Shown here one piece after another: positions 118 through 64,000 of a DNA stretch of 64,000 bases. Positions within the stretch are counted from its first letter, which is position 1. The number at the start of each line of letters is the position of its first letter. The notes under the pieces were generated by a model, which worked only from the letters and a program-made list of their open reading frames with translations, ran no database searches and was not told the DNA's origin. The DNA lies in NCBI GenBank assembly GCA_030063045.1, contig JAQSEB010000221.1:102501-166500 (forward strand). The letters run 5' to 3'. Origin of the DNA: Pratylenchus scribneri. Taxonomy: Eukaryota; Nematoda; Chromadorea; Rhabditida; Pratylenchidae. The position numbers were made by a program, and so were the translations under genes.

Positions 118-163
<46 letters not shown>

Positions 164-1313: not shown

Positions 1314-1466
1314 TAATGATCCAGCAGCAGGTTCACCTACAGCTACCTTGTTACGACTTTTGCCCGGTTCAAGCCACTGCGATTAAATTGGTTCCCACCA
1401 ATAAGCAGGCCCGAAAGACTGCAAATCAGCGGTCCCCAAGTTTCTCGAAATGGCTCAGTCCCGGGC

Positions 1467-1501
<35 letters not shown>

Positions 1502-1936: not shown

Positions 1937-1985
<49 letters not shown>

Positions 1986-7428: not shown

Positions 7429-7462
7429 AAAATTATATAATTTTTATTTTTACTTTTTAATT

Positions 7463-7635
7463 TATTTAGTAGGCCAGAGTCTCGCTCGTTATCGGAATAA
7501 ACCAGACAAATCGCTCCACGAACTAAGAACGGCCATGCACCACCATCCACCGAATCATGAAAAAGCTATCAATCTGTCAATCCTTACGGTGTCCGGGCCG
7601 GGTGAGTTTTCCCGTGTTGAGTCAAATTAAGCCGC

Positions 7636-7684
<49 letters not shown>

Positions 7685-12098: not shown

Positions 12099-12289
12099 CT
12101 GAATATTAACAAATTATTTTCAAAATTACTCTATTTTTTGTTCCGACCACAAAGAATTTTTGACAACTTTGGCCACCGATGCCCTATGGTCATAGGTCAA
12201 CTTTACTAGAGACATTTCCCAATTAGTAATCCTTCCCCGAATAAAAAACCTTCCATTCCTTTCATTTTTATATGATTTCTAGGATGAAT

Positions 12290-12480
12290 TTTTTGGTGTG
12301 GCGAAATTTGCGGCCCTTACCAAAAACGAATTTTGCGGCCCGAACATTGCGGCTTCGAATATTGCGGCCCGAAATTTGCGGCTCCGAATATTGCGGTCCC
12401 GAATTTTGCGGCCCTTACCAAAAACGTAATTTGCGGCCCGAATTTTGCGGCTTTTACCAAAAAATGATTTTAAAAAAATA
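12290..12480. repeat. Left arm of GCGGCC foldback element (copy 2)
   Basis: Short degenerate repeats of TTGCGGCCCTTACCAAAAACG type. They match the left arm of the complete element at 16640-17320. The right arm is missing because the unit ends at 12702. Confidence 0.75.
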
Positions 12481-12701
12481 ATATAGTGACACAAAGTGTA
12501 AAATTATAGAAAAGATAAATTTTTATCCATAAAAATATAATTTACCTACCGAATCAAATTCACTTCACTCAATAATTATTTTACCCTTAAGAAGGCATTT
12601 GGGTTAGGTTGCCTTTAAGATCGGGCTCAACATTCAGGAAAAGAGAAAAAAAGTAAAATAATATTAAAAATTAATTTCCGGACATTAGCGTGATTATTTT
12701 A

Positions 12702-13175
12702 CACTACCTCCTCAAATTGTTCTGAGAGTGGGTAATTTGCGCGCCTGCTGCCATCCTTAGACGTAGTGGCCATTTCTCAGGCCCCTTCTCCGGAGTCGAA
12801 CCCTGATCCTCCGTTACCCGTCACCACCATGGTAGTCAATGACAGTACCATCGAAAGTTGATAAGGCAGATACTTGAAAGACACGTCGCCGGTACAAGAC
12901 CATGCGATCAGCTTAGTTATTCTGAGTCAACATTGAGCGGCCGAAGCCGCATGGTTTTGTTCTAATAAATGCGTTCTTCCCTTTCGGGTTGGAACTTTGG
13001 TGCGTGTATTAGCTCTAGAATTACCACAGTTATCCAAGTAGGATGTCAAGATCAAGTAAATTATAGCTGTTGTAATGAGCCGTTCGCGGTTTCACGCTTC
13101 AGAGCGTTTATACTTATACATGCATGGCTTAATCTTTGAAATGAACACATCAGTTCAGGCAGGATCAACCAGATA
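12702..13175 (-). pseudogene. Truncated 18S rRNA, 5' 474 nt
   Basis: Matches 2645-3118 of the complete 18S at offset 10,057. The breakpoint shows a 4-bp microhomology, CACT, between the cyclin T intron (compare 17060-17063) and 18S (2645-2648). This suggests end-joining or template switching. Confidence 0.92.
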
Positions 13176-45935: not shown

Positions 45936-46300
45936 TTTTTCAATGAATGAAAAATAATCTTTAGAGTTAAAAATATAAATTAAAAAAATGGAAAAATAGA
46001 AAGGGGAAATGGCAAAAACGAACGGCCAGAGTGGCGAGACTGAGCCACTCTTGACTCTCGAGTATAAGAGGCAAAGGCGGAGCCAAAATATTCCCTCATT
46101 CTGAAAGAGGAACGAAAGGACCAATCGAGAATGAATTGGGCGGAGACTCGAGAATTTTAAAATAGAAATTAAAATTTGAATAAAAATAGGTCAAAATCAG
46201 GGTTATATATAAATAGGGGAAAATTCAAACCCAAACCATTCCCTCGATTCATTTTTAAATTTCCAATCCAAATTAAAAATTTTAATCCTTCTAATAAATA
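45936..46300. promoter_or_regulatory. Divergent intergenic region with TATA-like box at 46204-46215
   Basis: 365 bp between divergent start codons. The plus-strand sequence TATATATAAATA at 46204-46215 lies 86 bp upstream of the 46301 ATG, a reasonable distance for a TATA box plus short leader. The minus-strand promoter is not identifiable. Confidence 0.5.
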
Positions 46301-47324
46301 ATGGCTCTTAATATGAATGACAAGAAAAGCCTTGCCCAGCAAATATTACCGGAAGTAGATTTCAATATTACCACCACCGGAGTGACGGTCCATGCCAGCC
46401 AACGTCTTTCCATGCCACGTGTCATTCCATTCGACAATCAAGGAAAGTGTAAGGAATGCAGGTCGAGCGAAGTTGAGCTGGATTTTGTTGTGACGAAGGA
46501 AGGGGTTACGGTGTTTTGCACGCGAATGAAGGGAAGTCGCTTTGTGCCATTCGATTCGGTGCACGACTTACCAGGTCATTGTTTCTTCAAGATCAAAAAT
46601 AAAGGAAGAGTTTTCAACGTGGAACACGGACAACAAGCACCGGTAATTTGCCACCCAATTAATTCTACAAATCAAAAGGAAATTCAGGCTGAACCTCCAC
46701 TGAAAATGCCAAAAGTGGAGCCCGAAAAGGAATACACATTGAAGGAGACACTTTCGGAAATTTATGCATATCTCGATTGGATTGTTCCCAGCGGTGATGT
46801 GGCCGAAGGGATGATTGGACGTGTGAAGAAGGCCGGTGGAATAAGCTTCGAAGCATTTTTGGATGCCCTTTCCGCTGCCACTTCGTTCACAACAAATCCG
46901 AATGACAACAATATTTCACCGGAATTGTTGGAGGCATATCAAAAGAATTCGGCTAAACATAACAAAATTTTCGCGCCTAAGAATCCCGAGAGCCGAACAA
47001 TTCCCTTCAGTGTTTTGTTGGAAATTTTGGCTGCAGCTGCCACCTTTTTTAGGTGATTCACAGCTACCAAGTAAGCCAAATCAAGAACCAAAAGTGGAAG
47101 AAGCAAAATCTGATACAGTTCAGGCTCCAGCATCCGATCAGTATGAGGCATTCTATGAGAGTATGAAAGCTGCAACCACCGGCATTCCCGATCAACCAAA
47201 GCGAGTGAAGGAATTGATGGAACAAGCAAAACAGATGAAAGAGGAAGAAGAAGCAGCCATCGCCTCAATTACCCCTTCAATTCCTAATAAACCAACATCC
47301 CCATCAAGCACTAAATTCTTTTAA
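46301..47324 (+). CDS. Unrecognised Maverick protein, one short intron
   Basis: The first frame runs 46301-47056. A second frame in another phase runs to 47324. A 43-nt GT-AG intron (about 47001-47043, ending in a T-rich AG acceptor) joins them in frame to about 326 aa. The alternative is a frameshift at the T6 run. The N-terminus holds Cys pairs (GKCKECRSSE) suggestive of a small zinc knuckle, followed by an acidic middle and a Glu-rich helical tail. It precedes the ATPase by about 60 bp on the same strand. No homologous family recognised. Confidence 0.62.
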
Positions 47325-47386
47325 TAAGTTTACTCCATTCCCCTTTTCACATTTATTCATCATTTTTTATTAATTAAATTTAATCA

Positions 47387-48043
47387 ATGGATATTCCCTC
47401 TTTTTCTAATAAAGAATTAATGTTGAAATCGCCATTTGGAATGATAATTAGTGGGCCAAGCTCGAGCGGGAAGAGCACATTTCTATTGAAATTTATAGCA
47501 GAATCTTCTGAGTTGATTTCACCCAAACCTTCCAGTATTCTGTATTGCTTTGGCGAAATGAGTGATATTGTGCCAGTTCTCCAAAAATCCGGAATTGGCG
47601 TATTTGCAGGAGTTCCCCCAGAGGAAGTAATTAAACGCCAACCTAAGCCCCTTTTGCTAATATTGGATGACCTTTTATTGGCAATAGATGAAAAATATTT
47701 GAATCAACTGTTTACCGCAAAATCGCACCATCAAAATTTTTCCATTGTCTTTGTCACTCAAAATTTATTTGAAAAGAAAATTAAAGTTGCCCACCAAAAT
47801 GCTCAATATTTGGTCTTAATGCGATCTCCGAATTCGGCACTTTCTGTGAGGAATATTGGTGTTCAACTTTTTCCTCGCCAACTTGACTATTTTATGGATG
47901 CCTATCGGCAAGCAACAAATCAGCCTTATGGCTATTTGCTGATTGATATGCATGCTTCATCCGATCCGTCACTTAGGCTTCGCACAAATATATTTAATCA
48001 AGAAGAAGAGAGTACAATATTCATTCCTAAAAACGGTCTTTAA
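47387..48043 (+). CDS. A32-like (FtsK/HerA) genome-packaging ATPase
   Basis: 218 aa. Walker A is GPSSSGKS at residues 23-30 near the N-terminus. Walker B is LLLILDD ending at 94-95, after a hydrophobic strand. A polar motif follows (FVTQNLFE, about residues 123-130), as in sensor regions of this family. In Maverick/adintovirus elements this ATPase is thought to drive DNA into the capsid. Length and position beside the integrase and capsid genes fit. Intact frame with no introns. Confidence 0.9.
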   Translation: MDIPSFSNKELMLKSPFGMIISGPSSSGKSTFLLKFIAESSELISPKPSSILYCFGEMSDIVPVLQKSGIGVFAGVPPEEVIKRQPKPLLLILDDLLLAIDEKYLNQLFTAKSHHQNFSIVFVTQNLFEKKIKVAHQNAQYLVLMRSPNSALSVRNIGVQLFPRQLDYFMDAYRQATNQPYGYLLIDMHASSDPSLRLRTNIFNQEEESTIFIPKNGL

Positions 48044-48060
48044 TTTATTTCTCTAAAAAA

Positions 48061-48426
48061 ATGACCCAAGCAAAAATTAGTCAATTAATTCATGAAAATT
48101 ATCAATTTCTTAAAAGTTTATCCAAAATTAAATCTCCAAAGAAATTGCATCGATATTTGAAACATGCAAATTCGCAACAACTTCTAGCCATTGTAGAAGT
48201 TTGCCTCAATATTGTGTGCTCTCGTTTTCAATTAACCTCAAGGCAAAGGAATCGCCTAATGCCATATGCTGATTTTGTGCGCCGAATGAGCAGATTGCGT
48301 AGCGAGAAAGGTGCAAGAAAATTTATAGTCCAAAGGGGAAGTGGGGCTCCTGCCGTTTTCGGTGCTCTTCTTACTCCTATTCTCATTGAATTGGCCAAGA
48401 ATTTACTTATAAAAAAGGAAAATTAA
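48061..48426 (+). CDS. Small basic protein typical of Mavericks
   Basis: 121 aa, 17 bp after the ATPase stop. It is basic and helical (SRQRNRLMPYADFVRRMSRL) and ends in a hydrophobic segment (PAVFGALLTPILIELAKNLL). Small proteins of this design (a basic helical block, then QRG, then a hydrophobic tail) recur next to the ATPase in animal Mavericks; I recall the pattern but cannot name a validated function. A virion core or membrane-interacting role is possible. Confidence 0.65.
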   Translation: MTQAKISQLIHENYQFLKSLSKIKSPKKLHRYLKHANSQQLLAIVEVCLNIVCSRFQLTSRQRNRLMPYADFVRRMSRLRSEKGARKFIVQRGSGAPAVFGALLTPILIELAKNLLIKKEN

Positions 48427-48450
48427 TTTAAAAAATCATTTTATTATTTA

Positions 48451-48936
48451 ATGGCACAAAAATATCTTCTCGTTCCTGAACCAATTTATCGAGGTCTAAC
48501 CTCAACGGATACAGGCGAACCCAATCTTGATTTCACCAAAAGGGAATTGGACAAAATTAAACATGGCAGGATTGAGTCTTCCCAAAAAAATATTCTCTAC
48601 AATCAAGAACTCCGTCGATATTTGCAAATGAGAAATGAGCGAGAGAGTAGACCCGCCCGAGTTGAATTAACAAATGGCTTAAGAATGTTAGTTAAAAAAG
48701 GCGATGAATTTGAAAGTGGGGATGAAGAAATAATGATTGATGAAGATAAAAGTCCACCGAAACCCCCGAAGCTTTCAAAAAAAGTAGAAAATGTACCGAA
48801 TAATTTGGATGAATCAAGAACAGCAGATGATTTATCTTCTTCCCAGCCATCTTCTTCCACTGCCACCCTTTCTCAAAATCCTCCAGAAATATTTCAGGAA
48901 GGAAGAGATGAAATTCCTTTTATTCCAAGAAAATAG
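48451..48936 (+). CDS. Accessory Maverick protein, N-terminal part (ends at TAG)
   Basis: 161 aa to a TAG at 48934-48936. Residues 1-75 (LVPEPIYRGLTS, then KNILYNQELRRYLQMRNE) resemble a conserved N-terminal module found in Maverick accessory proteins; function unknown. The rest is acidic and Ser/Pro-rich. The frame after TAG stays open to 49776 with no ATG near its start, so this and the next entry are probably one original gene interrupted by a nonsense codon. Confidence 0.65.
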   Translation: MAQKYLLVPEPIYRGLTSTDTGEPNLDFTKRELDKIKHGRIESSQKNILYNQELRRYLQMRNERESRPARVELTNGLRMLVKKGDEFESGDEEIMIDEDKSPPKPPKLSKKVENVPNNLDESRTADDLSSSQPSSSTATLSQNPPEIFQEGRDEIPFIPRK

Positions 48937-49776
48937 CCTTTATTAGAAACAACAAATGCTAACACTCAATTAACAAAAATATCCAAAAAATCTAAGACTT
49001 TGACAAAAAAGAAAAGGCACATATCGTTAAGTCATCGTCCATTTGTTTTTCGAAATTATCAACCAATTAGAGAAGAATTGGAACCATCAATGAATAATTT
49101 GGCTTTACCATCTCCGACTAATGAACAATTGGCTTTATTGGATACGCCTCCTTCCAATGAAGTGGCTTTATTAAAATCGAAAACCTTAGAAAAGAAGAAG
49201 GATAGAATATCCATGTATCCAACGGGTTCAAAAAGAGTGGAAGCTATCAAATCTAGGCGAAAGGGTTCAATAACATTAGCTTCTCGACCTTCTGTTATAC
49301 GAAATTATCACTCAATTAGGAAAGAATTGGAACCGATGGATGATCAATCGGCTTTGCCTACTTCATCAGTCCAGCTGGCACTGGATGCCCATATACCTAC
49401 CCCTAAAACGCAAACATCAATGGAATTGTATGGAAGACCAGGTGTAAAATATAGACGTGACCCCGATTTAATTGAAGTAGTTTCATCGGCTGTCAGGAGG
49501 GACATAAGAAAGAGGAATTCAAAAGGGGATCCTCTAGAACAAAAGAAGCCAAGGATTGAAATTGAAGGTTCAATTCGCCGACGTCAATGGGCTCGTCGAA
49601 AACCAACTCAAGAAGAAGTATTAAATGGACCAATTAAATGGGCAAAAACAAGACCGACCCAGGCGGATGTGCATACGGTGTCAAATGAATCCGGTGGTAG
49701 AAGGCTACCGAATATTAGTAATAAAGCAAGATTGGAAGCACTACAAAAAAGAGTAGCACAATTTAAAAATAACTAA
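48937..49776 (+). pseudogene. Accessory Maverick protein, C-terminal part (after in-frame TAG)
   Basis: Same reading frame as the preceding ORF, continuing about 280 codons after the TAG. The apparent start at 49000 is TTG, not ATG. It is basic, with a two-fold internal repeat (SHRPFVFRNYQPIREELEP and SRPSVIRNYHSIRKELEP) and an Arg/Lys-rich end that suits nucleic-acid binding, such as a core protein. Stop-codon readthrough or a recent nonsense mutation are both possible. Confidence 0.55.
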
Positions 49777-49845
49777 TCCATTATTATTTGTCATTTTATA
49801 TATTTTTATAATTCATTTATATTCCTTTTTATTAATAAATTAATT

Positions 49846-50610
49846 ATGGATGAAATAAAATCGACACTCAATCAATTGTATAATAATCCTGAATCACCAG
49901 CTGCATTTTCCGGAATTGACAATCTTTACAAAGAGGCTAAAAAGAAACTAGGTTCAAAAATAACTCGAAAAGATGTTGAATATTATTTGCAAGGACATCG
50001 GACCTATTCCCTTATGCGCCCAAGGAGAGTGCATTTTAAGAGGGCAAAAACAATTCCGCTGGGATTTATGAGTGATATTCAAACAGATTTGGCCGAGATG
50101 GGTGCAATAAGCCGCAGCAACAGTGGCCATCGTTATATTTTAATTGCCATTGATGTACTGTCAAAAAGACTTTTTGCAATCCCTCTAAAGACTAAAAAGG
50201 CTGAAGATATGTTGCAAGCATTTAAAAAACTTCTAGACCAAATGCCTTTTAAACCTATACGGATTTATTCGGATTTGGGCACGGAATATCGGAATAAATT
50301 GTTGAAGGAATTTTTTGAAAATGAGGAAATACAGAAACTTGAGACAAGCTCAAGTTTTGTTAAGGCTTCGCTTGCTGAAAGAGCAATTCGAAATTTAAAA
50401 CAGCGGTTATATCGATATTTTTCGCAAACAAAAACATTGAATTGGATTGATGTGCTTCAGAAAATTGTCGATGGAATCAATCATGCCCCGAGCAGGACTC
50501 ATGGAATGCGCCCAATTGACGTGAACTTTAAAAATGCCCGAGAAGTCTGGAAACGTCAATATGGCGATGAATTCAAATTTAAGCGAAAGAGAATGAAACA
50601 AAATTATTAG
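49846..50610 (+). CDS. Retroviral-type integrase, catalytic part (Maverick)
   Basis: 254 aa before a frameshift stop. It shows an N-terminal helical region, then the RNase-H-like core with the DDE triad: D in SDIQTDL, D in IYSDLGTEY and E in SLAERAIRNL, with HAPSRTHGMRP following. This is the c-integrase that inserts Maverick DNA and sits in the usual neighbourhood. The C-terminal domains continue in a different frame from about 50604, so the gene is broken or needs a -1 shift in an A-rich tract. Confidence 0.9.
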   Translation: MDEIKSTLNQLYNNPESPAAFSGIDNLYKEAKKKLGSKITRKDVEYYLQGHRTYSLMRPRRVHFKRAKTIPLGFMSDIQTDLAEMGAISRSNSGHRYILIAIDVLSKRLFAIPLKTKKAEDMLQAFKKLLDQMPFKPIRIYSDLGTEYRNKLLKEFFENEEIQKLETSSSFVKASLAERAIRNLKQRLYRYFSQTKTLNWIDVLQKIVDGINHAPSRTHGMRPIDVNFKNAREVWKRQYGDEFKFKRKRMKQNY

Positions 50611-50939
50611 CTGGTGATACGGTTCGAATGAGTAGGGGAAAGCATATTTTCGAGAAAGGTTATATTCCATCCTGGGGAGATGAGATATTAACAGTGGATT
50701 CTGTAAAAACCAAATCCAAACCTATTCTATACAAAATTCGCGACGATAAAGGGGAAAAATTCAAGGGGTCATTTTATGGAGAAGAATTGGCCAAAGTCAG
50801 AAGGGATGCCGACACAACTTACCGTATTGAAAAGACCTATAGAAAGAAAAAGCGACCGGATGGAACCTTTGATGTGCTGGTTAAATTTATAGGCTATCCA
50901 GAGAGGGAATGGATTCACGAAAGCCAATTGCAACCATAA
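50604..50939 (+). CDS. Integrase C-terminal SH3-like region and chromodomain (shifted frame)
   Basis: The frame reads LLAGDTVRMSRGKHIFEKGY, the usual linker after the integrase core, and then FYGEEL. It ends in a chromodomain (RKKKRPDGTFDVLVKFIGYP, then WIHESQLQP). Chromodomains in such integrases can direct insertion to marked chromatin. It is in the -1 frame relative to 49846-50610. A 56-nt GT-AG intron could join them in frame but would delete conserved residues, so a genomic or programmed frameshift is more likely. Confidence 0.85.
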   Translation, partial: LLAGDTVRMSRGKHIFEKGYIPSWGDEILTVDSVKTKSKPILYKIRDDKGEKFKGSFYGEELAKVRRDADTTYRIEKTYRKKKRPDGTFDVLVKFIGYPEREWIHESQLQP

Positions 50940-51033
50940 AAAAAGAATATATAAATTCGACAACATATAAATTTGATATTCATTCATTCATTTATTTTCA
51001 AAATTATTAATTTCAATTTTCACCAGAATAAAA

Positions 51034-52503
51034 ATGTCAAACAGCTTTTTTGTCTATGTTCCGAGTAATATTCAGGATTATCCGGATAACCGACCGAATA
51101 AATTTCGAATGCATTTGCCTAGGCCAATCGAATTGGAGGGAAATTGGGTTTGTGGCTTACACAGCATATCGTTCCCTTATTCATGGGCTTCCACAATATT
51201 GGATGATAACCAGGCAATTTTTGTTCACTATAATGAGACTGAGAAAAAGGAACGGCTCATAAAAATTCCAATCCCAAAAGCTTCGCATAAAAACATAAAT
51301 GAATTACAAACATTCCTCCACGAAACAATTAAATTTCAATCCAAAGCATTGAATGAAGCTAAAAATACCTTTTTGAAGAGACCGACTGTCGAAAGCGGAG
51401 TATCAGCAACCAGAGGGAAACGTGCAGCTTCCACTAAAGCTGAAGGAGATAAGAAAAAACAAGAATCTCCGCCAAGGAAAGCTCCAGCTCCCCCTAAGGG
51501 TTCGCCTCCTCCTCGCCTTGGACTTTTGGAAACTTATTTTGGAGAAGAACAAAAGGAGGAAGGAAAAAAGAATGGAGAAAATAATACAGTAAAGGGAAAT
51601 GAGAATAAACCTGTTACAACTCGAAGTTCCGCTACCGTTTCTGCGCCTAGTATTGAAACAAGCACAAATACAGCTGCTTTAACCTCAACTTCATCCAACA
51701 ATCAAAATTCCGGGCAGAATACTCAAACAGCTCCAATTCAATCTAGCATCAAAAAATCACCGCCCAAAGCGGAATCAAAAGCTACGGCTGCTGATTCCGC
51801 ATCGGATGATTCCCCACTTTTGAATACATTTTTTGGTGATGAAAATATGAATAATGCCGACGGTGAAGACAAAACAAAAAAGGCAGAGAATGGAAAGAAA
51901 GAGGAAGGAAAAAGGGGAGAGAATAGGGAAGAAAATGGAAGAGAAGAGGAAGAAGAAATTGGAGGAGAGAATCTTATTTCGATATTTTTTGGGGATTTAC
52001 CTAGACCAGAAGTGAAATCGATAGATTTGGAAATGGCTCAACATATGATTGACTCAATCGGCTTCCAATTTCATAAAGAATTTCAACGCTTTCGGGCTGT
52101 TTTTACTGATTCGAATATTAATTATATCATGTTTACCCCGCAACTAGCATACGTTATGGGATGGGAAAATGGCATGCATGTAAAAAATGGAGATATCGCA
52201 AAATATGCCTGTGATTTAAAGGGTGGATTCTCAAGCTTTGGTGTCTATACAAAAGGATTAACAGAGAATATGATTATTGGAAATAAGATGAGTTCTCTGC
52301 TTCGTGTTGTATCCATTTCCGGATCGACCCCAGGCGAATACACTGAACAAATTTATGATTCACCCATTTACGTAAAAGTATTGCCGAAGACAGTGAATGA
52401 AATTGAAATCGAGTTGCTAACAATGGAAGAAGGCAGGCTTTTGCCCATGGATTGGGGTCAAGTGATGATAGTCTTGATATTTAAACGAATCATTCAATTT
52501 TAA
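51034..52503 (+). CDS. Penton-like minor capsid protein with long low-complexity insert
   Basis: 489 aa. The N-terminus (MSNSFFVYVPSN, then NKFRMHLPRPIELEGNWVCG) and the ISFPYSW motif match the penton/minor capsid proteins of Mavericks and adintoviruses, which fill the capsid vertices. Residues ~110-325 are Ser/Glu/Lys/Pro-rich and appear inserted into the fold. They carry three copies of an L-x-x-x-[FY]-F-G-[DE] motif (164-171, 262-269, 314-321). The jelly-roll-like sequence resumes after ~330 (HMIDSIGFQFHKEF ... PQLAYVMGWENG). Possibly spliced or processed. Confidence 0.8.
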   Translation: MSNSFFVYVPSNIQDYPDNRPNKFRMHLPRPIELEGNWVCGLHSISFPYSWASTILDDNQAIFVHYNETEKKERLIKIPIPKASHKNINELQTFLHETIKFQSKALNEAKNTFLKRPTVESGVSATRGKRAASTKAEGDKKKQESPPRKAPAPPKGSPPPRLGLLETYFGEEQKEEGKKNGENNTVKGNENKPVTTRSSATVSAPSIETSTNTAALTSTSSNNQNSGQNTQTAPIQSSIKKSPPKAESKATAADSASDDSPLLNTFFGDENMNNADGEDKTKKAENGKKEEGKRGENREENGREEEEEIGGENLISIFFGDLPRPEVKSIDLEMAQHMIDSIGFQFHKEFQRFRAVFTDSNINYIMFTPQLAYVMGWENGMHVKNGDIAKYACDLKGGFSSFGVYTKGLTENMIIGNKMSSLLRVVSISGSTPGEYTEQIYDSPIYVKVLPKTVNEIEIELLTMEEGRLLPMDWGQVMIVLIFKRIIQF

Positions 52504-52585
52504 TTCATTCCATTTTTATCTCTATCCCCCATCAATTAATTCATATTATTATACGATTGAATAAATATTAATTTAAAAAAAAATA

Positions 52586-53092
52586 ATGGTGCACGTTGTT
52601 TTCGATACAGCCACCGTTGGCTACGATGATTTTATCCAAACAGGAGGGGGTCCATCAGATATGGGTGAATCCTATAGATATGAAATATTCAAGGGTGGCC
52701 CTGCATATATGCAGAGAGGCTATGGAATTCAGCACGGAGCTGGCATCACAGATGTGTTAAGGGGAGTTTGGCGATTTTTCTTGCCTCTAATTCGCCGTGT
52801 TGGGACAACTGTGGGCGAAGAAGCACTAAATACAGGCCAAAGAGTAATGGAAAAGCTTCACGAAGGACAACCGCTCAAAGAAGCAGTAATTAGCGAAGGA
52901 AAGAAAGGTATCGATACTGTTTTGGACAAAGGAGGATTCCAAAAACAATTTGGGACAGGCAGGAAGCGTATAAAAAGGCCAAAAAATTCCCAATCCATAC
53001 TCAGTCAACAATCTATTATTGGACGAACAATAAGCAAACCACTAGCTCATTCTAAAAAAAGGTTGCGATCGGACGCATTTGGTTTATATTAA
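52586..53092 (+). CDS. pVI/pX-like minor virion protein
   Basis: 168 aa, just before the major capsid gene. It has a Gly-rich N-terminus with the segment MQRGYGIQHGAGITDVLRGV, a basic/hydrophobic helix (WRFFLPLIRRVGTTVGEEAL), and a Lys/Arg-rich tail (GRKRIKRPKNS). Such proteins in Mavericks are compared to adenovirus pVI and pX; they may be protease substrates or membrane-lytic/core proteins. Function here is inferred from family and position. Confidence 0.75.
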   Translation: MVHVVFDTATVGYDDFIQTGGGPSDMGESYRYEIFKGGPAYMQRGYGIQHGAGITDVLRGVWRFFLPLIRRVGTTVGEEALNTGQRVMEKLHEGQPLKEAVISEGKKGIDTVLDKGGFQKQFGTGRKRIKRPKNSQSILSQQSIIGRTISKPLAHSKKRLRSDAFGLY

Positions 53093-53135
53093 TTAAAAAT
53101 AATCATCTTCCTAAATTAAAATTAATTAATTAAAA

Positions 53136-54548
53136 ATGGCCTTTCACAAAATCGACTCGGATAGTGTCAATTCTATAACAAATCAACTCGACTTTTTTTC
53201 TATTCCACCAACAGATGTTTCAATTTCTTCGGCCAAAGTTTTTGAAATATTAACCCAAAATCCTGTGGACACTCCACCCTACCAATTTAAAATCCACAGC
53301 TCCGATAATTATATTGACTTAACGAAATGCTATTTATTTACGGAATTTCGAATAAGAAAGGAAGGGGCAAATGGACAATTGGTGGATTTGGCAGCGACAG
53401 ACGATGTTGCACCAATCCAATTAATCGGCAATACTTTCATAAATAATTTAAAAATTGCTATCAATGGGAAAGAAGTTTTCAATTCCAATTCTCTGATGGC
53501 CTACAAATCCTATCTCTCTCATGAAATTTCATTTAGTCCTATTGCAAAGTATTCACATTTGGAAGCGGCTGGATATCGGTACAATGGGGAGAGGGATAGT
53601 CTTGAAACAGGCAGCGGATATAAACTCAGAAAAGAACAATATAAACAGAGCAAAATTGTGCAATGCATTGCCAAAATCGATTCAGACTTATTTTGCCAAC
53701 CAAAATTGCTTATTTCTCATTGCGGAATTGAAATATCCATCCAGCCAAATGATTCAAAATTTGTCCTCATTTCACCAACGAATGTCGCAAAGCCAGCCGC
53801 TGGTACTACACCTGCCGTTGCCCAAATAAAATATCATTTTGAAGTGGTCTGTTGCAAATTATATGTCAAAAAGCTTTCCCCTGTGGATGGATTGGCTTTG
53901 GATATTGCGCGAAAATTGGAGACAAAACCCGCTAACTATGCTGTTAGGAAAACAACATTGAAGAGTATTTTTATTAGTCAAGGTCGTTATCAGATGAATG
54001 CCAGTTTGTTTTTGGACCAAATTCCTCGACGAATTACATTAGGGTTGGTGGCAAATAAAGATTTCGTAGGAGATTATACACGGTCTCCATTCAATTTTCA
54101 ACATTTTAATGTACGCGAAATCAATATTACTGCTAATGGGCGAATTTACCCGCAAGCACCCTATGATTTGGACTATAAGAATGATAAATATGTTCGACCT
54201 TTCCATGATATGAATGATAATGCAGGCTTTGCAAATACATTGGAAGGAAATGGAATTGGTTATGCACAGTTTAAAAAAACCCATTGCCTTTACATTTTTA
54301 ATTTAACCAATAGTTTGGAGGATCAAGGAGGAGTTTTCGATCTCATCAAAAGTGGAGCAACCTCGGTTGACATAAAATTTGCTGAACCTGTGCCCGATGG
54401 CGGAATTGTGCTAATTGTGATGGCCGAGATGGATGGGTTATTTATGTTGGATAAGAACCGAACCATTTCTAGCGATATAAAGTATAAATACCCTCCATTC
54501 ATTCATTGTCATTTTTTTTTACCAATATTTAAACGAATAAAAAATTAA
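53136..54548 (+). CDS. Major capsid protein, double jelly roll (Maverick)
   Basis: 470 aa. Typical Polinton MCP features: the early segment DVSISSAKVFEI, YQFKIHSSDNYIDLTKCYLF, NTFINNLKIAINGKEVFNSN with the following AYKSYL, and the second jelly-roll part SPFNFQHFNVREINITANGR. It would build the pseudo-T capsid. Intact frame. Its stop lies 2 bp before the protease start, which suggests coordinated expression. Confidence 0.88.
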   Translation: MAFHKIDSDSVNSITNQLDFFSIPPTDVSISSAKVFEILTQNPVDTPPYQFKIHSSDNYIDLTKCYLFTEFRIRKEGANGQLVDLAATDDVAPIQLIGNTFINNLKIAINGKEVFNSNSLMAYKSYLSHEISFSPIAKYSHLEAAGYRYNGERDSLETGSGYKLRKEQYKQSKIVQCIAKIDSDLFCQPKLLISHCGIEISIQPNDSKFVLISPTNVAKPAAGTTPAVAQIKYHFEVVCCKLYVKKLSPVDGLALDIARKLETKPANYAVRKTTLKSIFISQGRYQMNASLFLDQIPRRITLGLVANKDFVGDYTRSPFNFQHFNVREINITANGRIYPQAPYDLDYKNDKYVRPFHDMNDNAGFANTLEGNGIGYAQFKKTHCLYIFNLTNSLEDQGGVFDLIKSGATSVDIKFAEPVPDGGIVLIVMAEMDGLFMLDKNRTISSDIKYKYPPFIHCHFFLPIFKRIKN

Positions 54549-54550
54549 AA

Positions 54551-55600
54551 ATGTTCATTTCCCAAAAATTTTTATTCTCAATCTTTCTTATTCGAATTTT
54601 TCTTCCAATGGTCCTTGTCATTTCTTCGCCATTAATTGTGGACCCAGAGACCAACGAGCCAATTAGATGGAGGGAATTGCCAGAGTATAAGGAATATTTG
54701 AAGCAATTGGGCAAAACCATAGGCAGCAGCACAGTAATCCCCTCTTCTACCATAGAAAATGGTGGCGCAAAATTTGGACAGCTGCAAGATAGTCCTCTCG
54801 GTCCTCTCAGTCAATTGCCTGCCATTCATCTCTGCAAAGAATCTCCCAAGGACAATGATATTTATGGCCATGCCTATTGTCTGGCAATGTACATTATGTA
54901 TATTTTGCTAATTCTATGCCTAATTATCTATGTGGTACGCTCTATTATTCGCTTGACCAAACAGAATAGAGGAAATGGAATCGGCAATTCATTTGAATTT
55001 ATGGAATTAGCAGCAAATAAAGAAAGGAATGGAGTGGACCAACTTGACCATATAAAAGGCCCACAAATTTTGGAAGCTCATAGCAAAGGGCTTAGAGGAA
55101 AAGAATTTGCAGAGTATATAGGCATCATAGATGAGCAGAATAAATCAATGGAAAGCGACTTGATTACGAAAATTCTTTCGACAAATCCACAGACCAAACA
55201 AATATTTGCTGGCTGGTTTCCTTCAGACCAAATTCCTTCTCCTAACAAATTAAAATATCCAGCGGCATTAGTTGCAAATCTCGATCCACATCAAATGGAG
55301 GGCTCACATTGGGTGGGAATTTTTGCCGAAGGACAAAAACGACCAATTTATTATTTCGATAGCCTTTGCATGCCCATAAGTCCAATCATTGAACAAAACT
55401 TTTTAAGCAAATTCCCCCAAATAATTAAAAATGAAAGACAATTTCAATCGCCTAAAGCCTCAACTTGTGCCCATCATTGTATCACATTTATTTATTACAT
55501 GTCCCTAGGTTATACATTTCCCCAATACGTTAAATTCTTGTCCTATAAAGAAAATCCAGATTCATTTGTTAAATTTATCGTGAATAAAATTATTGAATAA
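54551..55600 (+). CDS. Adenain-type cysteine protease with membrane-anchored N-terminus
   Basis: 349 aa. C-terminal ~150 residues are an adenovirus-protease/Ulp1-type domain: H253 in GSHWVGIF, D270 in YYFDSL, and C306 in STCAHHC preceded by Q299 (the usual CG is CA here). The first ~200 residues are unusual: a hydrophobic signal-like stretch (7-26), a ~80-residue ectodomain-like linker, a clear transmembrane helix (113-129, YIMYILLILCLIIYVV) and a hydrophilic linker. Maverick proteases are normally soluble virion enzymes, so this looks like a fusion. One continuous frame, no intron needed. Confidence 0.82.
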   Translation: MFISQKFLFSIFLIRIFLPMVLVISSPLIVDPETNEPIRWRELPEYKEYLKQLGKTIGSSTVIPSSTIENGGAKFGQLQDSPLGPLSQLPAIHLCKESPKDNDIYGHAYCLAMYIMYILLILCLIIYVVRSIIRLTKQNRGNGIGNSFEFMELAANKERNGVDQLDHIKGPQILEAHSKGLRGKEFAEYIGIIDEQNKSMESDLITKILSTNPQTKQIFAGWFPSDQIPSPNKLKYPAALVANLDPHQMEGSHWVGIFAEGQKRPIYYFDSLCMPISPIIEQNFLSKFPQIIKNERQFQSPKASTCAHHCITFIYYMSLGYTFPQYVKFLSYKENPDSFVKFIVNKIIE

Positions 55601-55732
55601 AATAATTGAATAAGAAGAAATAGAATATTATTATTGAAAAATGGGGGAATAGAATTAACTTTGTCAAATATTATTATTGAAAATTGCCATAGGGAAATTC
55701 CCTTTTCATATTGCTGCGATGGCTGCTGTTGA

Positions 55733-56144
55733 TTATTGTAGGTCGAACATTTCGATAGGCAAGTTGTTGCATGGACATTCTTGAAGAATGACAATGCATG
55801 AATGGCAAAGCTTAAAGCCACGATAAGCAATCAAATCGTCGCCAACCCACATAACCTCATCATGTGAATTAAAAAGTCGCTCAATGCAGCCATCACAGAG
55901 GTGTTGCACTTCCCGCTTTTTGAAGACTTTCCTATACTAAAATTAAGGAATGGATGCATATATATTCAAATTAAATTTTTACCTGAGGCCAATCAACATC
56001 ATTTGATCGGTCCCATGTATAAGTTCCCTCTTCAACATTCATCCAATTCGTTGCCGGAGGAATAGGAGCATTCATTTTCGGAATTGGAGGCTGGCTTGAG
56101 GCCTTGAATTGAGGCGAAGAGGCATTCTCGGTTGTTTGGCTCAT
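55733..56144 (-). CDS. Small Cys-rich protein, two exons, unknown
   Basis: Exons 56144-55983 and 55936-55733 (46-nt intron) join in frame to 121 aa. It has a Pro/Ser-rich N-terminal half and a second exon with paired cysteines: HLCDGC, then LCHSC and CPC. This spacing suits a zinc-ribbon-like fold. It lies convergent to the protease inside the Maverick. No known function. Confidence 0.6.
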
Positions 56145-57275
56145 TTCGATTATTAATTTTTTCGTTTATTTGAAGTATGATTATAAGGAAAAATCGACGG
56201 AAAAAAAAATTTTTTTTGAAATATTTGATTTAATAAATCGTCAGCCTTTTATATTGTCCAAATCCATGACCTTTGCCCGATACTTAGGCACAATTAATGC
56301 ATTTTCATTCAAATATAAATTTTCTTATGAATACCATCTGTTTTATGCATCCAAAATGTATAATTAAAATTATTTTTAATTATAATAATAATTAAAATTT
56401 AAAAAATTTTGAATCAAAATTGTAATTTTTCTCAAGGCCAAATTTAATTGCTCAAATTTCCATTTCTCAGTAAAACATCTGTCGCAGCATTTCATGGGCT
56501 GTTTTTGAATAGAATAATTACAACTAATTATCTTTACGAAATTAGGCTAAATAAAAATTGAATTTAACAAAATTATTAATTTTTAAAATAAAATCATGAA
56601 AAATTCAACTTGGCCCTATTTTATGGCCAATATTTTTTGTATCTTAACGAAATTAAAAAATCTAAACTGGAACTTTTATAGAGGAGATATGATAAAATAT
56701 AATGCAAAAATGTTTAAATCCCTATCTTTTTAACCCAAGGAGGAGATAGGATTTGAGTGAAAATAGTCTTTGTGTAGATGAACAATACAGTCATAAATTT
56801 TTTACATTAAATCATGAGAACTTCAGGGGCAGTTTTTAGATAGAATAATTAACGATAATTATCTTTATGAAATTTGATTGAATAAAAATTGAAAATAACA
56901 AAGTTATTAAATTTTAAAAATATCTCATTAAAAATTTTTGATTTGGTCCAATTTTATGGCCATAATTTTCTTATTTGAAGGAATTAAAAAAATTCAATAT
57001 GGACATTTGTAGCCTAGATAATGAGGAATAAAATGGCCTTTAAATTAAGTCCATAGCTTTCCATCTGAAAGAGTTATTAATTTTTTAATTGATAATTTTT
57101 GAAAAATTTGATATGGCCTAATTTTATGGTCATAATTTTCTTAATTGAAGGAATCAGAAAATTTTAGTACGGACATTTATAGCCTTGATAATGATGAATA
57201 AAATGGCCTTGAAATTAAATTCGTAGCTTTCCATCTGAAAGAGTTATTAATTATAATTTGCCCTATTCCTGGGAG
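56145..57275. other. Intergenic, degenerate repeats
   Basis: No gene seen. Two ~125-bp related blocks (56513-56638 and 56846-56972) and a ~165-bp tandem pair (about 56935-57100 and 57105-57255, sharing TTTTATGG(C/T)CATAATTTTC and GCTTTCCATCTGAAAGAGTT). Confidence 0.55.
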
Positions 57276-57283
57276 TATATAAA
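57276..57283 (+). promoter_or_regulatory. TATA box of the PAZ gene
   Basis: TATATAAA, 76 bp upstream of the ATG, in the context GGGAG..CCGACC. It implies a start site near 57305 and its own transcription unit. Confidence 0.65.
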
Positions 57284-57358
57284 CCGACCATTTTCCCTTT
57301 TTCATTCATTTGATCAAATCATTTCAAAAAATATTTCAATTTAATTTTTATTCCAAAA

Positions 57359-58024
57359 ATGGCCAGAAAACGCTATTCCTTCCGTATTGTCTGCGCTAGA
57401 ATCTTGAATTGCAAACCCAGTCAGCTTCGCGAAAAATTGGCCCATCCAGGGAAAAGGGAAGAGCTCATCCGCCGAATGCCATATTATATCTCTTCAAAAA
57501 AGATGCACACAACATATAAGGATAGAAAAGGAGAAAAAAGAGAGTTTAAATTTGGTGGGATCACAGAAGAGGGGGCCGATGCAATTAAGGCTTTCGGTCG
57601 ACTTTCTCGCCCATTTAATATGAGTGTAGTTCAATACTTCTATGCCAAGCATGGAATTCGATTGCAATTTCCCTATTTGCCTTGCGTGATTGAACGTTTT
57701 CCGGTTGGTGCCGAGGACTACAATTATCCAATGGAATTGGTTGAAATGGAAATGGAGGAACAACAATTTTATGAACTTCCAATGCCATGTTGGTTTACTC
57801 CTCCAGACCATGCATTGCATCTTTTCGGGAATTTGAGTCTGGGAGAAAATTCATCGCAGAATGTGAAAGAAGAAGCCAACGAAGAGGAAGATCCATCACT
57901 TTTTGACTATTCCACAAAGACACAAATTGAAATGCCTCCAGAAATTTCTGATTATGTCGATGAAGAAGGCCGAAATTCATTAAGCCAACTATATAACCAT
58001 CATTACCAATTCCACCATTTTTAA
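57359..58024 (+). CDS. Stand-alone PAZ-domain protein (Argonaute-like), captured in Maverick
   Basis: 221 aa, intronless. Residues ~10-130 match the Argonaute PAZ domain in order: LNCKPSQLREKL and following, the basic strand REFKFGGI (counterpart of RKYRV in Argonautes), then VQYFYAKHGIRLQFPYLPC (91-109) aligning to the YF..KY.I.LKYPHLPCL block, and YPMELVEM. Argonaute PAZ grips the 3' end of small RNAs. No MID or PIWI follows: the frame ends in an acidic tail (131-221) and downstream DNA is non-coding. It lies between core Maverick genes. I infer capture of a host RNAi gene and a possible decoy or silencing-suppressor role. Transcribed from its own TATA box. Confidence 0.78.
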   Translation: MARKRYSFRIVCARILNCKPSQLREKLAHPGKREELIRRMPYYISSKKMHTTYKDRKGEKREFKFGGITEEGADAIKAFGRLSRPFNMSVVQYFYAKHGIRLQFPYLPCVIERFPVGAEDYNYPMELVEMEMEEQQFYELPMPCWFTPPDHALHLFGNLSLGENSSQNVKEEANEEEDPSLFDYSTKTQIEMPPEISDYVDEEGRNSLSQLYNHHYQFHHF

Positions 58025-59133
58025 TTAGGCTATCCCTTTTTATTTGTCATATTCGACCATTATTATGCCATCATTTATTAAACTTGATTTTTCCATTTAA
58101 TTAATTAATTAATTAATTCATTGATAAAAGTTAATCATAAAAGTTGAATTTGTGGACAAAAGGGAGGGGAGGGGCGGCGAATTAAGCTGCACAATTTGTG
58201 CGGAGAGGCATGTGCATTTGTGCATAGTGCATTTTGGTGCAGGTGCAGGTGCATGCCTCACACCTTATCAACCGCACAAGCACGGCACACGCACACACCC
58301 GCACAATTCGCACACACTGCACTTATTTGGCGTAAAAACTCGTATTTTAGTGGATTTTTACTTAATATTTTGCAAAACTTTTCTTCCCCGCCTTAATTCC
58401 GCCATTTTTCTCCTTAAAAGTACATCTTCCCTTCACTAACTTTTTCTAAAACTCATCTTTAACATATTTGTTCCATTAATTTTAATAGGATAAATTTGAA
58501 AAGTGCAACTTCTAATTCTTAATTTTTTCAAAAAGTTATCTTCTATTGCTTAATTCCACCTATTTTCAGCTAAAAACTCATACTTCTATCGACTAATTTT
58601 TTCAAAAAGTCATCTTCCATTCACTAATTTTGCATGTTTATTTTTAAAAATTAGCAATGAAAATACATTTAAGACAAACAAATATAAAAGGAATACGCGA
58701 AAAGAAGTGAAAAGGGTGGTGATTTTTCCCTCTGAACGGAGAAATCACAGGCAAATGAAAGGTGATTGTTCCTTCTGGACGGAGAAATCACAGGAAAATG
58801 GTAGGTGATTTTTCCCTCTTGACGGAAAAATCACACATGCAAGGGAAGTTATTTACTATAATAAATTAGAAAGTATAACTTCTACTTTTTAATTTTTTTC
58901 AAAAAGTCATCTTCTTTTGCTTAATTCCACCTATTTTCAGCTAAAAATTGGTTCTTCTAATCACTAATTTTTTTCAAAAAGTCATCTTCCATATGTTAAT
59001 TTTACTTGTTTATTTATTTATTTATTAATTAATAATACAATGAAGTATAAATGAAATAAATTGAAGTCATTACTAAGAGAAAATGATTACAATACAAAAT
59101 GTGATTGGAATAAATGGAAAGAAAGAATTACAA
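58025..59133. other. Intergenic between PAZ gene and PolB, repeat-rich
   Basis: Contains an AATT run (58100-58118), a GCA/ACAC-rich patch (58195-58320), two ~125-bp direct repeats (about 58500-58625 and 58870-59000, sharing TTAATTCCACCTATTTTCAG), and between them three tandem hairpins (58718-58834). No gene supported. Confidence 0.6.
58718..58834. repeat. Three tandem hairpins, 43-bp period
   Basis: Units at 58718, 58761 and 58804. Each is an imperfect palindrome with an outer GGTGATT...AATCAC stem and a central TTCCCTCTGAACGGAGAA-type loop. Arms vary compatibly in places (CTCTGAACGGAG versus CTCTTGACGGAA). Confidence 0.8.
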
Positions 59134-62100
59134 TTAATTGGGAGTAATATAGCCAAAGTCAAGAACGCGAGTATCAGAAGGGCGAACAATTCCTTTACCA
59201 CAAAATGGTTTCCAAATTTTTTGAAGGGGTTGAGTATAAACAGTGCCATGCTTAAGATTGGGGCGAAGAAAATTTGGGTACAAAACATGAATGGGTTGGG
59301 GTTGTCCTGTTTGGCAATATCGCAAAACCGATTCTTTGAATGTCTCATATTGAAGTCCCTGATTCATCATCACATCCCAATTCAACGTCATGCCTCGAAT
59401 CTTCAAAATGTAGTCGAATTCATTCTCCTCTTCTGGCGCATCAATTTTCTTCATTTTTATACCATATTGCTTTGCTCCACCGCTGACCCATTCGACCACT
59501 TTGTAGTCCTCTGGTATCTCACTGGTCAGGCCACCCAAATGAGGAGAAGTTTCGAGGACTTGTCCATTTTCCGGTTCGACAAAAACGATCGAGTCTGTGT
59601 CTGAAATTGGCAAATTTATTCCCAAAAATTCGAGTCAAAGGCCTTACCGGTGTACAAAATTTCGCATCCCGGAGCATTTGCCACCTTCTGCATAGCTTTC
59701 AGTAGCAAAATCCGGGCCTGGCTGGTTGTCCAAAGCGAAATGACCACATTCGATGCATCGCCTTCCTTCACCCAATCTCGCTTCCTAACAAAGCTGATCA
59801 TAATTGTCTCCTCATCCAACTCATCCAATGCAGTCACATCCAATGAACGATCTTCGAGATAACGGCGAAGCTCGGCTGGATCATCAGTGATTCGTGTTTC
59901 AGAAAGGCCATAATTTCGAAGCGAGAAGCGACCCCACAAGTTGTTCAGGCAAAGTTTGGCCAAAGCTCGCCTTCCTTTATTTGTTTTCATCTTGCTCCGG
60001 TCAATTGCAATGCCAAACATTTCCAAACATTCCGCAATGAATTTCTCCTCTTCTTCAAAATTGCCTTTGATTGTTGAATCGAAGCCGGAGGCGTGAAACT
60101 TTTCCGTCAGGAATTCTCGGACATATGATCGAGAGAGTTTGTCATCTGATCGTTCATATTCCAGCACTCGATACAATTCCGTAAAACGGTAGCCAGCCGC
60201 CAATGCCTCCGCTGCTTCAATCGAAGTGCAGATTGAAACCCATCCTCTTTCTTCATCGTTATGTTGGCAGCTATATTCTTCATTCACGGCGCCCTTTGGA
60301 TTTTCTTTGCAGCATTTTGAGCACAGTGGAAAGAGTAGTCGATCATCCTTCTCCATTTTCATCGGCAGAACCGGAACTCTGCATTGCTTTGGCGGAATCA
60401 CAAACGCTTTGATGATGGAGAGTGGAAAGAGAATGTCATCCGGTTCAGTCAAATTGATCTTTTTGTTCACAATGTGCACTTTGGGGATGCCAACAGGGTA
60501 ATTGGTCGTATAATTGGTGAAAGGATACAAGCTAAATTGATAGGGAATTAATTAAAATGTTATTCAAAATAATAAAATTTACCTGGTGAAATCCAGGTAG
60601 GAAATCTTTTCGCCTGGTTTCACTTTATGATAAAGTTTCATTGGACCCGTGCGCCCCCCGTAGAAGGCCTTTCTCAAATCAATTGGCCCCTTGTCGTGAT
60701 ATTCTTCGAATCTTTGTGCCATTTCCTTATCCTCCTCCAGCATTTGATCAATTTCGCAGGTCCAATAAACTTCAACTGGCACTTTGGACCGCAAAAATCG
60801 CATTCTTTCTTCATCTTTTTGCCTCAGCCATCCTGCCGTTTTCCCTCCGGGCATTAGCAAATCATCATCCGGGTAACACTGCTTACAGCCGTGGAACGGA
60901 CAGCCATTCACCTCGATTCCTCTTTGCTCTTCTTCAATCCATCCGTCCAATTTGTATCTTCCAATCCGCTTTTCTCCTCCTTCTGAATGCGCCGTTCGAA
61001 TTGTAACATTCCGCTCATCTGCCAGCCATTGGAGGAATTTTAGTGCCACCGGTGATTGGGTTTCACAAGAATCGTAGCCTTTTTCTGGAACAATGGCCAT
61101 ATGGTTGAATTTGAGATGGTTGGCACGAAAATGTTGAAGGCATGCAGAGGAAATTGTTACACAGTCCCGAAGTGGATCGATCCCATCATGAGGCTTAAGC
61201 GAAGGCCGATCAGCATTCCCAAATTCATCCGGTGGTCTTTTGCTGATGTCAATAAAATGCTTCCGAAAAGCGACTAGAGCAGCCATCAATATATCGGTAT
61301 CCTAAATTAAATGAAATTAATTACATAAAAAACTGTAAAATTAATTACATTGCAACAATAAGCAGCCAAAGCCTCATCCAGAAAGAATTCCTCGTTTTTG
61401 TGCTGCTCATACCATTCATCAAAGGCCTTCTTCTTCGCCGGCATAAAACCTCGATACAAATATTCCTCCTTTGGTGGCAGCTGAGACATTCGAACTCCGT
61501 AATTTTCCTCCCTATTGGCCAGATAGGGGAAGAAGGGTTTGTCCATAACATTGAGATCGAATGAAGGGACTGTTGTGGCCAATGGCATATGCAAAAGATT
61601 GTAACTGTCACGGAAAATAACTGCCGGATTCTTTTCAATTCTCGCCACACTCATTTCATAAAGTTTGTTGCCATTTCGGATCATTTCAGGATTCAGCTTT
61701 TCTTTATATAAATTTTTGCATATGAACATGTAATCAAATCGGCCAGCATTGTGTCCATAGCAATAAGTGGGGAAATCCGGTGGAAAATCATGCAGAATCC
61801 AATCGACAAATGCTGCAGTTGGGTCGTCTGTTTGATGGTGAAAATCGACCCGAGTATCCGAAAAATCACAATGGCCGAAAGTGACTGTCCTATTTGGTCC
61901 ACAAACTTCGCATTCATAAATTCCATCCGCTAGACTTTCTTCCCATTGGCCATTTTCAATGCATTCAGGACAACCAATTCTGACAGAAATGAAGTTGACT
62001 CGGTGATTTTTCTTGTTTGTTTCTTTTTGCGCCAAATTTTGTCTCTGCTGCTGCTGTTCATTCTCCTTGCGACACCATATTTTTGAAGGATTTGCTTGTT

Positions 62101-62434
62101 GTTTTGTTTTCTTTTCAATGGTAGCCGGTTCATTTTGCATCGTTTCCATATCCATTGCCACAATACGGAAACGATTTGATTTGAATGATTCCCCCGGCTC
62201 GATCACTTTGATGAAGCATCCTCTCTCCTTATCATGATATGTGTCGTACCGTTTACAATACGTTTCGCCGCACACGTGCCCTTTTCTGCCTTTCTTTGTG
62301 TTCCATTCCACATTCCAAATAGTTCCGCATTTCTCACACAGCATTGACTGATTGCAAAAGCCCGAATTGATATGATAATTGTAGCACTGCTGATTGTTGA
62401 ATAATTTCCGACATTTTTCACACTTTTTTTCAAA
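59134..62434 (-). CDS. Protein-primed DNA polymerase B (Maverick), spliced
   Basis: Exons 62344(or upstream)-61349, 61301-60583, 60531-59648 and 59600-59134 join in frame: about 1,021 aa from the ATG at 62344. An in-frame zinc-knuckle extension (KKCEKCRKLF...) reaches to an AG acceptor at about 62434, so an upstream exon is probably missing. Exonuclease motifs: MDMETM (D65/E67), GHNAGRFDY, and YCCN.D across a splice. Polymerase motifs: DFTSLYP (A), LCLNNLWGRF (B), YTDTDS (C) and AKQY. All catalytic residues appear present. This enzyme replicates the element using a terminal protein primer. Confidence 0.88.
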
Positions 62435-62960
62435 TCCTCAACATATTTAAATTTAGCATTACATAAATGAATATTTGTCCACGAGACATGAACAATTTTT
62501 TGTTGAGATAATATTAATTTGGCAAAAAAAACACTGAATTTGGCAAAAAAAATATTTAATTTGGCAAAAAGTAAATATATATTTAATTTGGCAAGAAAAA
62601 TACTGAAATTGGCAAAAAATATATTTAATTTGGCAAAAACAATAAAAAATATATTCGCTCGTTATAATCAATACAAACCGGTTTGAAATGAACAAAAATT
62701 GGTTTAATAAATTAAAAATTGATGGAATATTAAATTTTTTGAGGATGCGCAGGATATAGCTGGATATAGGTGAATTTGGGGGTGGATATAAGGGGGATTA
62801 AGCCGGATTAAGCCCCGAAATGGATGGAAACTGGCCCAGAAGGCCACTGGAAGGTCGGGTAAGAGTAACAGAGGCCAGGAGAGTGCACGGGATATAGCCG
62901 GATATAGGGCGATTAAGGCGGATTTAGGGGGATTAAGCCCCGAAATGGATGGGGAATAGC
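62435..62960. repeat. TTTGGCAAAAA repeats and GGATATAG minisatellite
   Basis: 62515-62640 repeats AATTTGGCAAAAAA-like units. 62740-62960 has two ~135-bp copies built on GGATATAGC(T/C)GGATATAGG, GGGGGATTAAGCC and CCCCGAAATGGATGG. This may lie near the right end of the Maverick. No terminal inverted repeat could be matched on the left. Confidence 0.6.
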
Positions 62961-63272
62961 CCGAAGGGCCATATGAGGATGACGATGATTTGCTGGACTT
63001 GGTCACGCTCTTGGGCATCAAGGTTTAATAAAATATATAAAATTTTATCATTAAAATATTAAATATTGATGTAGATGCAAGGTTATGTGGTCGGAATGCG
63101 AGCCCCTGCCAATGCCAACCAAGAAGATGGCAATCGAACTGAAGACACCATCGATTTGGAGGCGGAGGCTGATATTTTCGATGATGAAGAAGGATTGGAT
63201 TTTGATGATGAAGAATCGCAAGAAATCCAATCTGAATTTGATTATTCCATCCCTACTACATCCACCCGATAA
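62961..63272 (+). CDS. 3' exons of an unrecognised acidic protein
   Basis: A short exon (about 62961-63023, YEDDDDLLDLVTLLGIK) joins across a 50-nt intron to 63075-63272 (VVGMRAPANANQEDGN, then very acidic, ending SIPTTSTR and stop). The frame is preserved and both ends have GT-AG sites. The 5' part was not found, because the repeat upstream interrupts. Host or element origin unknown. Confidence 0.45.
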
Positions 63273-64000
63273 TTTTATCCCATTTTTTGCTCATTAATTC
63301 CATTTTATTTCCATATTTTTGCTCATCAATTCAACAATTTATTTATCTATTCAATTTTCATCCCAGTTTTCAATTAAATCAGCCGCAATAATTGATTAAA
63401 TTGTCTTTATTTTAATTCATTTTTTCCATTTTCGATGCTAAAATAAATAATTTCAACATAGTTTGTTTGATAATTTTTGGAATTATATTTTAGTTGGATT
63501 AATAGATACTGAAAAATGAACACTAAAATTGTGATCAGCGCTTAAAATTACCCTAGAAATATTTTTTTTGCATTTTTTTCAGTAAATATAAAAAAATTAA
63601 AATTTTTCGAGATTTCGTCCTTTTTTCCCTTTTTCGGGATTTCGTCTTTTCGGGATTTCATCTCATTTTCGTGTTTTCGAGATTTCGTCCTTTTTTTCCA
63701 CTTTTCGGGATTTCGTCATTTCGGGATTTCGTCTTTTTTTCCACTTTTCGGGGTTTCGTCTTTTCGGGGTTTCGTCTTTTCGGGGTTTCGTCTTTTCGGG
63801 ATTTCGGGGGTTAGCGATATATTCCATTTTCCATATGTAACACCTACTTTTCATTTTCTCTCAATAAACGAGAAATAAAATTAGAAAGGTCGGAGCCCGG
63901 AGCCGGAGCCGGAGTCGGAGCTAAAAATTTGAAAGGTCGGAGCCCGGAGCTGGAGCCGGAGCTAAAAGAATTATGAAAAGCACAGCTCTGATCATTTTGA
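63273..64000. repeat. 3' flank with TTTCGGG(A/G)TTTCGTC and CGGAGCC minisatellites
   Basis: 63600-63810 holds about ten TTTTCGGG(A/G)TTTCGTC units. 63884-63975 holds two copies of GGTCGGAGCCCGGAGC plus GGAGCCGGAGC repeats. The rest is AT-rich, no gene. Confidence 0.7.

Follow-up and report, generated by a model that had tools for sequence, protein, structure and literature searches.

The 64,000-nucleotide stretch of Pratylenchus scribneri DNA analysed here (the window) holds a Maverick/Polinton element, recognised by its PolB, rve integrase, A32-type ATPase and double-jelly-roll capsid genes (Table 1). The capsid fold is a predicted one, since the capsid profile had no match among PDB sequences; among the top three matches per locus, with part of the proteins named, the capsids of related elements find their best named match in Meloidogyne incognita at ∼77%. 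The protease match, weak in the window, recurs in 19 of 20 relatives, often adjoining the capsid gene. The PolB gene is broken over several frames of the minus strand (59134-62344) and forms one long polymerase frame in the relative L052. No terminal inverted repeats were found around the element within positions 40000-64000, and its right end may fall beyond the window. Ribosomal DNA occupies positions 1-13172 on the minus strand, with an LSU part (1-498), the 5.8S gene (767-920), a full SSU (1314-3118) and partial SSU copies (7318-7638/7704-8814 and 12663-13172). Between the capsid/protease genes and the PolB pieces lies a stand-alone PAZ gene, in the Maverick setting that the first-pass annotation had claimed for it.

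Table 1. Features of the Maverick element and of its PAZ gene in the window.
Feature	Position	Strand	Basis
Packaging ATPase (A32-like)	47387..48043	+	PF04665, 27.0 bits (cut-off 22.8)
Integrase core	49846..50610	+	PF00665, E 1.3e-7, 32.2 bits (0.4 below cut-off 32.6)
Major capsid protein, double jelly roll by model	53136..54548	+	
Putative maturation protease	54551..55600	+	PF02902, weak, E 0.12
TATA box (TATATAA) of PAZ gene, ATG 83 bases further on	57276..57282	+	sequence
Stand-alone PAZ gene, 221 aa	57359..58024	+	
PAZ fold, residues 5-134	57371..57760	+	
Acidic C-terminal tail, residues 131-221, net charge -16	57749..58021	+	
C-terminal motif GRNSLSQ (family form GRxxCSQ...W/F)	57968..57988	+	
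PolB piece	59616..60530	-	PF03175, E 2.3e-12
PolB piece	61307..62344	-	PF03175, E 1.3e-9

That a Maverick carries a stand-alone PAZ gene is confirmed as a real observation; the PAZ domain and the gene's own TATA box, both proposed by the first-pass annotation, are borne out, and, as it proposed, no MID/PIWI was found attached. The window protein scores 31.3 bits against the Pfam profile PF02170 (curated cut-off, 28.8 bits), PAZ is the only Pfam domain in its reading frame, and the predicted structure has the PAZ fold. All 22 members of the family alignment match PF02170 at E ≤ 1; three of four divergent members pass the cut-off, and one (L073, 27.6 bits) falls below it. The further parts of an Argonaute protein, MID/PIWI and L2, are lacking in the scanned ORFs: a Pfam scan of the six ORFs flanking the gene found no PIWI, L2 or MID, and probes for L2 and PIWI matched none of 2545 ORFs from window positions 46000-64000 and 20 relatives. 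By comparison, these probes matched 11 and 5, respectively, of 22 host loci, with the probe loci counted in. A MID-PIWI portion spliced onto the PAZ gene was rejected on the same scan and probes. A strict TATA match lies upstream of 18 of 27 family copies, compared to a mean of 6.2 and a maximum of 12 under block shuffling. Neither PADLOC (two proteins tested) nor NCBIfam (four proteins tested) gave a match; the viral structure library held none to the PAZ protein at E ≤ 0.001, and no close PAZ relatives were found on viral contigs.

The window protein combines a basic part (net charge of +12 over residues 1-130) with the acidic tail, which is predicted at pLDDT <50 over residues 151-221. The tails of the family align poorly to one another. 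Of 43 distinct family proteins, 17 have the motif GR[DNES].[CL][ST]Q in the tail (2000 shuffles of the tails gave a mean of 0.001, the proteins being related and not independent), a looser pattern finds no match in 21, and the last residue is W or F in 26 (W in 19). The search ran from residue 131 onward and for this reason missed P0019, a protein of 129 aa with a GRATCSQ-type end. Outside PAZ genes, among ORFs of at least 60 aa in the window and the relatives' loci, the looser motif is confined to two frames of 69 aa that run antisense to protease-like genes. An Argonaute hook made from tail tryptophans was set aside, the window copy having no Trp after residue 145. In one Maverick lineage (L036, L038, L060, L063), CxxCGxxH-type, zinc-ribbon-like stretches replace the GRxxCSQ...W end of the PAZ tail and are repeated in L038 and L063.

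The pocket for the RNA 3' end appears to be largely kept in the family, as judged from 22 members mapped by hand, through a profile alignment and by sequence rather than coordinates, onto the residues Y309, K313, Y314, H269, K333, Y277, F292 and Y336 that we take to line it in human Ago1. The Y309 position is Y or H in 19 members and F in three, the K313 position K or R in 18, the Y314 position H in 20 (as it is in human Ago2), the H269 position Y in all 22 and the Y336 position Y or F in 18, with N in the window copy. At F292 the alignment register is ambiguous, the window copy having A78 there and an adjoining aromatic residue 79. The pocket that the first-pass annotation had expected stands at most positions and departs from expectation at two, K333, which is lost (E119 in the window copy), and Y277, which is F in 16 members and I or L in six.

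Phylogeny places the family beside the worm's own silencing proteins. The tree (79 columns) compared 34 family sequences with 11 host PAZ exon sequences of the same genome and with human and fly Ago1; 24 of the 34 came from this genome, 20 of them with a capsid/ATPase gene found within 16 kb and four without, and 10 were database proteins. All 34 fall on one side of a split from host PAZ (UFBoot 98-99, SH-aLRT 96). With the Ago1 group as outgroup, they join the host exons that we take to be WAGO-like from tree position and general knowledge (UFBoot 92-93, SH-aLRT 78-81), and their placement as sister to one WAGO group receives UFBoot 66-73. The host loci L024 and L016 are considered true Argonaute genes because PIWI and L2 pieces adjoin their PAZ. 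The data are best read as derivation of the Maverick gene from a member of the worm-specific, WAGO-like side of the host Argonautes. Both share the PAZ fold, and similar blocks are found in the host exons L018/L022 (VVQHF...MRIRFPRLPCLIK...YFPMEVL); in distinction to WAGO proteins, the Maverick PAZ has no found PIWI or L2, forms the separate clade and possesses its own acidic tail and C-terminal motif. With the RNA-bound PAZ of human Ago2 (8thq, 6ra4) it shares 18% identity, differing as a stand-alone gene.

The same gene occurs in many other elements of the genome (227 Mb, 276 contigs). PAZ lies within 15 kb at 81 of 90 scored capsid loci (best 90 of 350 candidates, identity at least 49%), where ∼2.8 would be expected for 222 randomly placed PAZ loci; no PAZ was found near the other nine, two of which (C253, C194) are <9 kb from a contig start. 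Within 18 kb, PAZ accompanies 105 of 150 scored ATPase loci (best 150 of 335), namely 90 of the 99 whose ATPase identity is at least 56% and 15 of the 51 more divergent ones, with none found near the remaining 36. This split by ATPase divergence indicates a large group of Mavericks in which PAZ is common and a second group in which it is scattered or escaped detection. Since part of the capsid, ATPase and PAZ candidates was scored (for PAZ, the best 150 of 264), the counts describe the best-scoring part only; the match lists behind them comprise 149 of 150 protein rows and 147 of 152 family rows. Half of the PAZ loci (111/222) have no found capsid/ATPase gene within 18 kb, host Argonaute exons and stop-containing copies being among them. 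Among the divergent members, L071 encodes a 126-aa protein, hardly more than PAZ, 7.6 kb from an ATPase match; its near twin L074, like L072, L073 and L070, has no capsid/ATPase match within 18 kb. About 19 similar PAZ copies (G000 C34, C65, C14:1358819, C28, C102 and others) form a decayed or different element group: almost all are interrupted by an in-frame stop, and almost all lack a capsid/ATPase match within 15 kb. Short PAZ-profile matches also lie within very long open frames at G000 C46:518671 and C234:111122 (3606 and 2338 aa, respectively).

Beyond this genome, the named database relatives of the protein come from Globodera rostochiensis, Heterodera trifolii and H. schachtii only. 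In H. trifolii, niasHT_003309 (PAZ) and niasHT_003308 (a capsid relative) have consecutive locus tags and contigs equal in size (478,126), and the best environmental matches to PAZ and capsid are both on contigs sized 7,934. From tags and sizes, PAZ probably adjoins the capsid gene in H. trifolii, and the two environmental matches probably lie on one contig.

The PAZ gene is under purifying selection. Among 70 related pairs, 55 had usable dS (0.03-2) over the PAZ part; their dN/dS had a median of 0.15 and a maximum of 0.38, with values ≤0.25 in 52. Over the matched stretch, in-frame stops interrupt four of 93 PAZ matches beside Maverick genes as compared to 30 of 56 other matches. The histories of PAZ and capsid are congruent: their distances correlate (Mantel r of 0.89, reached in 0 of 10,000 permutations) and their trees have 12 of 17 splits in common, including nine of the 10 PAZ splits supported by at least 95 (20 of 21 elements; the broken copy L049 left out, and L058 represented by the longer of two capsid pieces). 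Of 130 divergent pairs, 128 show lower identity in PAZ than in capsid, and PAZ has the higher median dN/dS, 0.18 against 0.08 for capsid over 21 pairs (18 of 21 elements; L049, L051 and L058 left out). The fast divergence is not uniform, because the closest relatives of the window conserve PAZ about as well as capsid, or better. Within the L050-L056 group, and for L047 against L045/L046, dS is 0.62-0.84 for PAZ and 0.13-0.28 for capsid; between L045 and L046, and in the whole window group, PAZ dS is the lower one. Because the two dS disagree in detail, and because the place and orientation of the PAZ gene vary among elements with capsids 97-99% identical, exchange of the gene among elements has apparently been superimposed on a long shared ancestry.

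The silencing apparatus of these worms gives the observations a possible context. Nematodes outside clade V are reported to have lost piRNAs, with RdRP-made small RNAs targeting transposons in the examined clades III/IV; Globodera pallida is without piRNAs and has RdRP-type 22-26-nt 5'-triphosphate RNAs antisense to transposons (PMC4323106), and Meloidogyne has no PRG-1 and many WAGOs (PMC5934874). The reading we favour, with evenly balanced confidence, is that a PAZ domain captured from the WAGO side and kept under selection serves as a silencing suppressor, gripping small-RNA 3' ends while its tail holds a partner. An ancestor of these nematode Mavericks would have captured the domain from a WAGO-like host Argonaute, and selection would have retained it, across most of the lineage's elements, as a short uninterrupted gene served by a TATA box of its own. 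The basic PAZ may bind the free 3' ends of the 22-26-nt RNAs used against transposons in piRNA-less nematodes, small RNAs might in this way be withheld from WAGO proteins, and the acidic tail with its GRxxCSQ...W motif could tether the protein to a host or element partner. A suppressor competing for small-RNA 3' ends fits because the PAZ is free, basic and WAGO-like, widely carried, usually less conserved than capsid and apparently swapped. A more elaborate version is possible, if doubtful: a two-headed suppressor and standard gene of the lineage whose PAZ takes 22G-type 3' ends and whose tail docks on a silencing factor, the cassette being exchanged in an arms race with the WAGOs. The proposal of the first-pass annotation, a decoy that sequesters small-RNA 3' ends or blocks Argonaute/Dicer partners, is partly supported. 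How widespread the gene is, its WAGO-like affinity and the C-terminal motif are additions to that proposal.

Partner blocking by itself would have PAZ and tail motif imitate part of a WAGO, as a dominant-negative decoy for loading or amplification partners, and it draws on the WAGO-like affinity in the tree and on a C-terminal motif, often with a closing W, that recurs in an otherwise poorly alignable acidic tail. We consider it rather unlikely, since pure protein mimicry has no need for the RNA-pocket positions that are largely kept, and about half of the family proteins lack even the looser motif. Wide carriage would also suit a replication or packaging protein, and a factor of replication, integration or packaging, binding the 3' ends of DNA or RNA from the element itself, gains from the core-gene-like presence of PAZ in most related elements, from its position next to the polymerase or protease gene in several lineages and from human Ago1 PAZ having been crystallised with a duplex that has a deoxynucleotide overhang (1si2). 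Such a role is nonetheless improbable for a gene that changes place and orientation between close relatives, is less conserved than capsid over divergent pairs, has named database relatives from Globodera and Heterodera only and groups with silencing proteins. The kept pocket and the cassette-like diversity of PAZ among coexisting elements would also accommodate use of small RNAs to the element's benefit, in self-limitation or in silencing of competing elements; we regard this as quite improbable, since the protein has no effector domain and no adjoining PIWI/L2 piece was found. That the gene is a host Argonaute pseudogene or passenger fragment, as PAZ standing alone and the frequent stops away from found Maverick genes could suggest, is hardly credible, since selection and carriage speak strongly against it in the low dN/dS of nearly all usable pairs, the 89 of 93 stop-free matches beside Maverick genes and the relatives in Heterodera and Globodera.

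As to precedent for the favoured small-RNA suppressor, the WG/GW Argonaute-binding suppressor of Sweet potato mild mottle virus (PMC2904775) has the small-RNA machinery as a target in common with that proposed for PAZ; the listed matches of the literature searches included no viral silencing suppressor that derives from a captured PAZ domain. Caenorhabditis Mavericks likewise carry extra genes, according to the meeting report PMC10680173 (wosp proteases, krma kinases and a putative fusogen); in contrast to such occasional cargo, the PAZ gene is present in most elements of its lineage. Among the listed matches of searches in open-licence full texts, none describes a PAZ gene standing alone in a Maverick or a virus, and the preplasmiviricot study PMC11071308 does not use the term PAZ in its main text.

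Lastly, our analysis suggests that transposons turn a piece of the host silencing machinery against that same machinery. If true, this would be a silencing suppressor built from a captured piece of Argonaute itself, and the protein may offer a tool for inhibiting WAGO silencing. The WAGO-like PAZ carried on most elements would be a candidate answer to the question of how large virus-like elements persist at no fewer than 90 capsid loci in this nematode genome.
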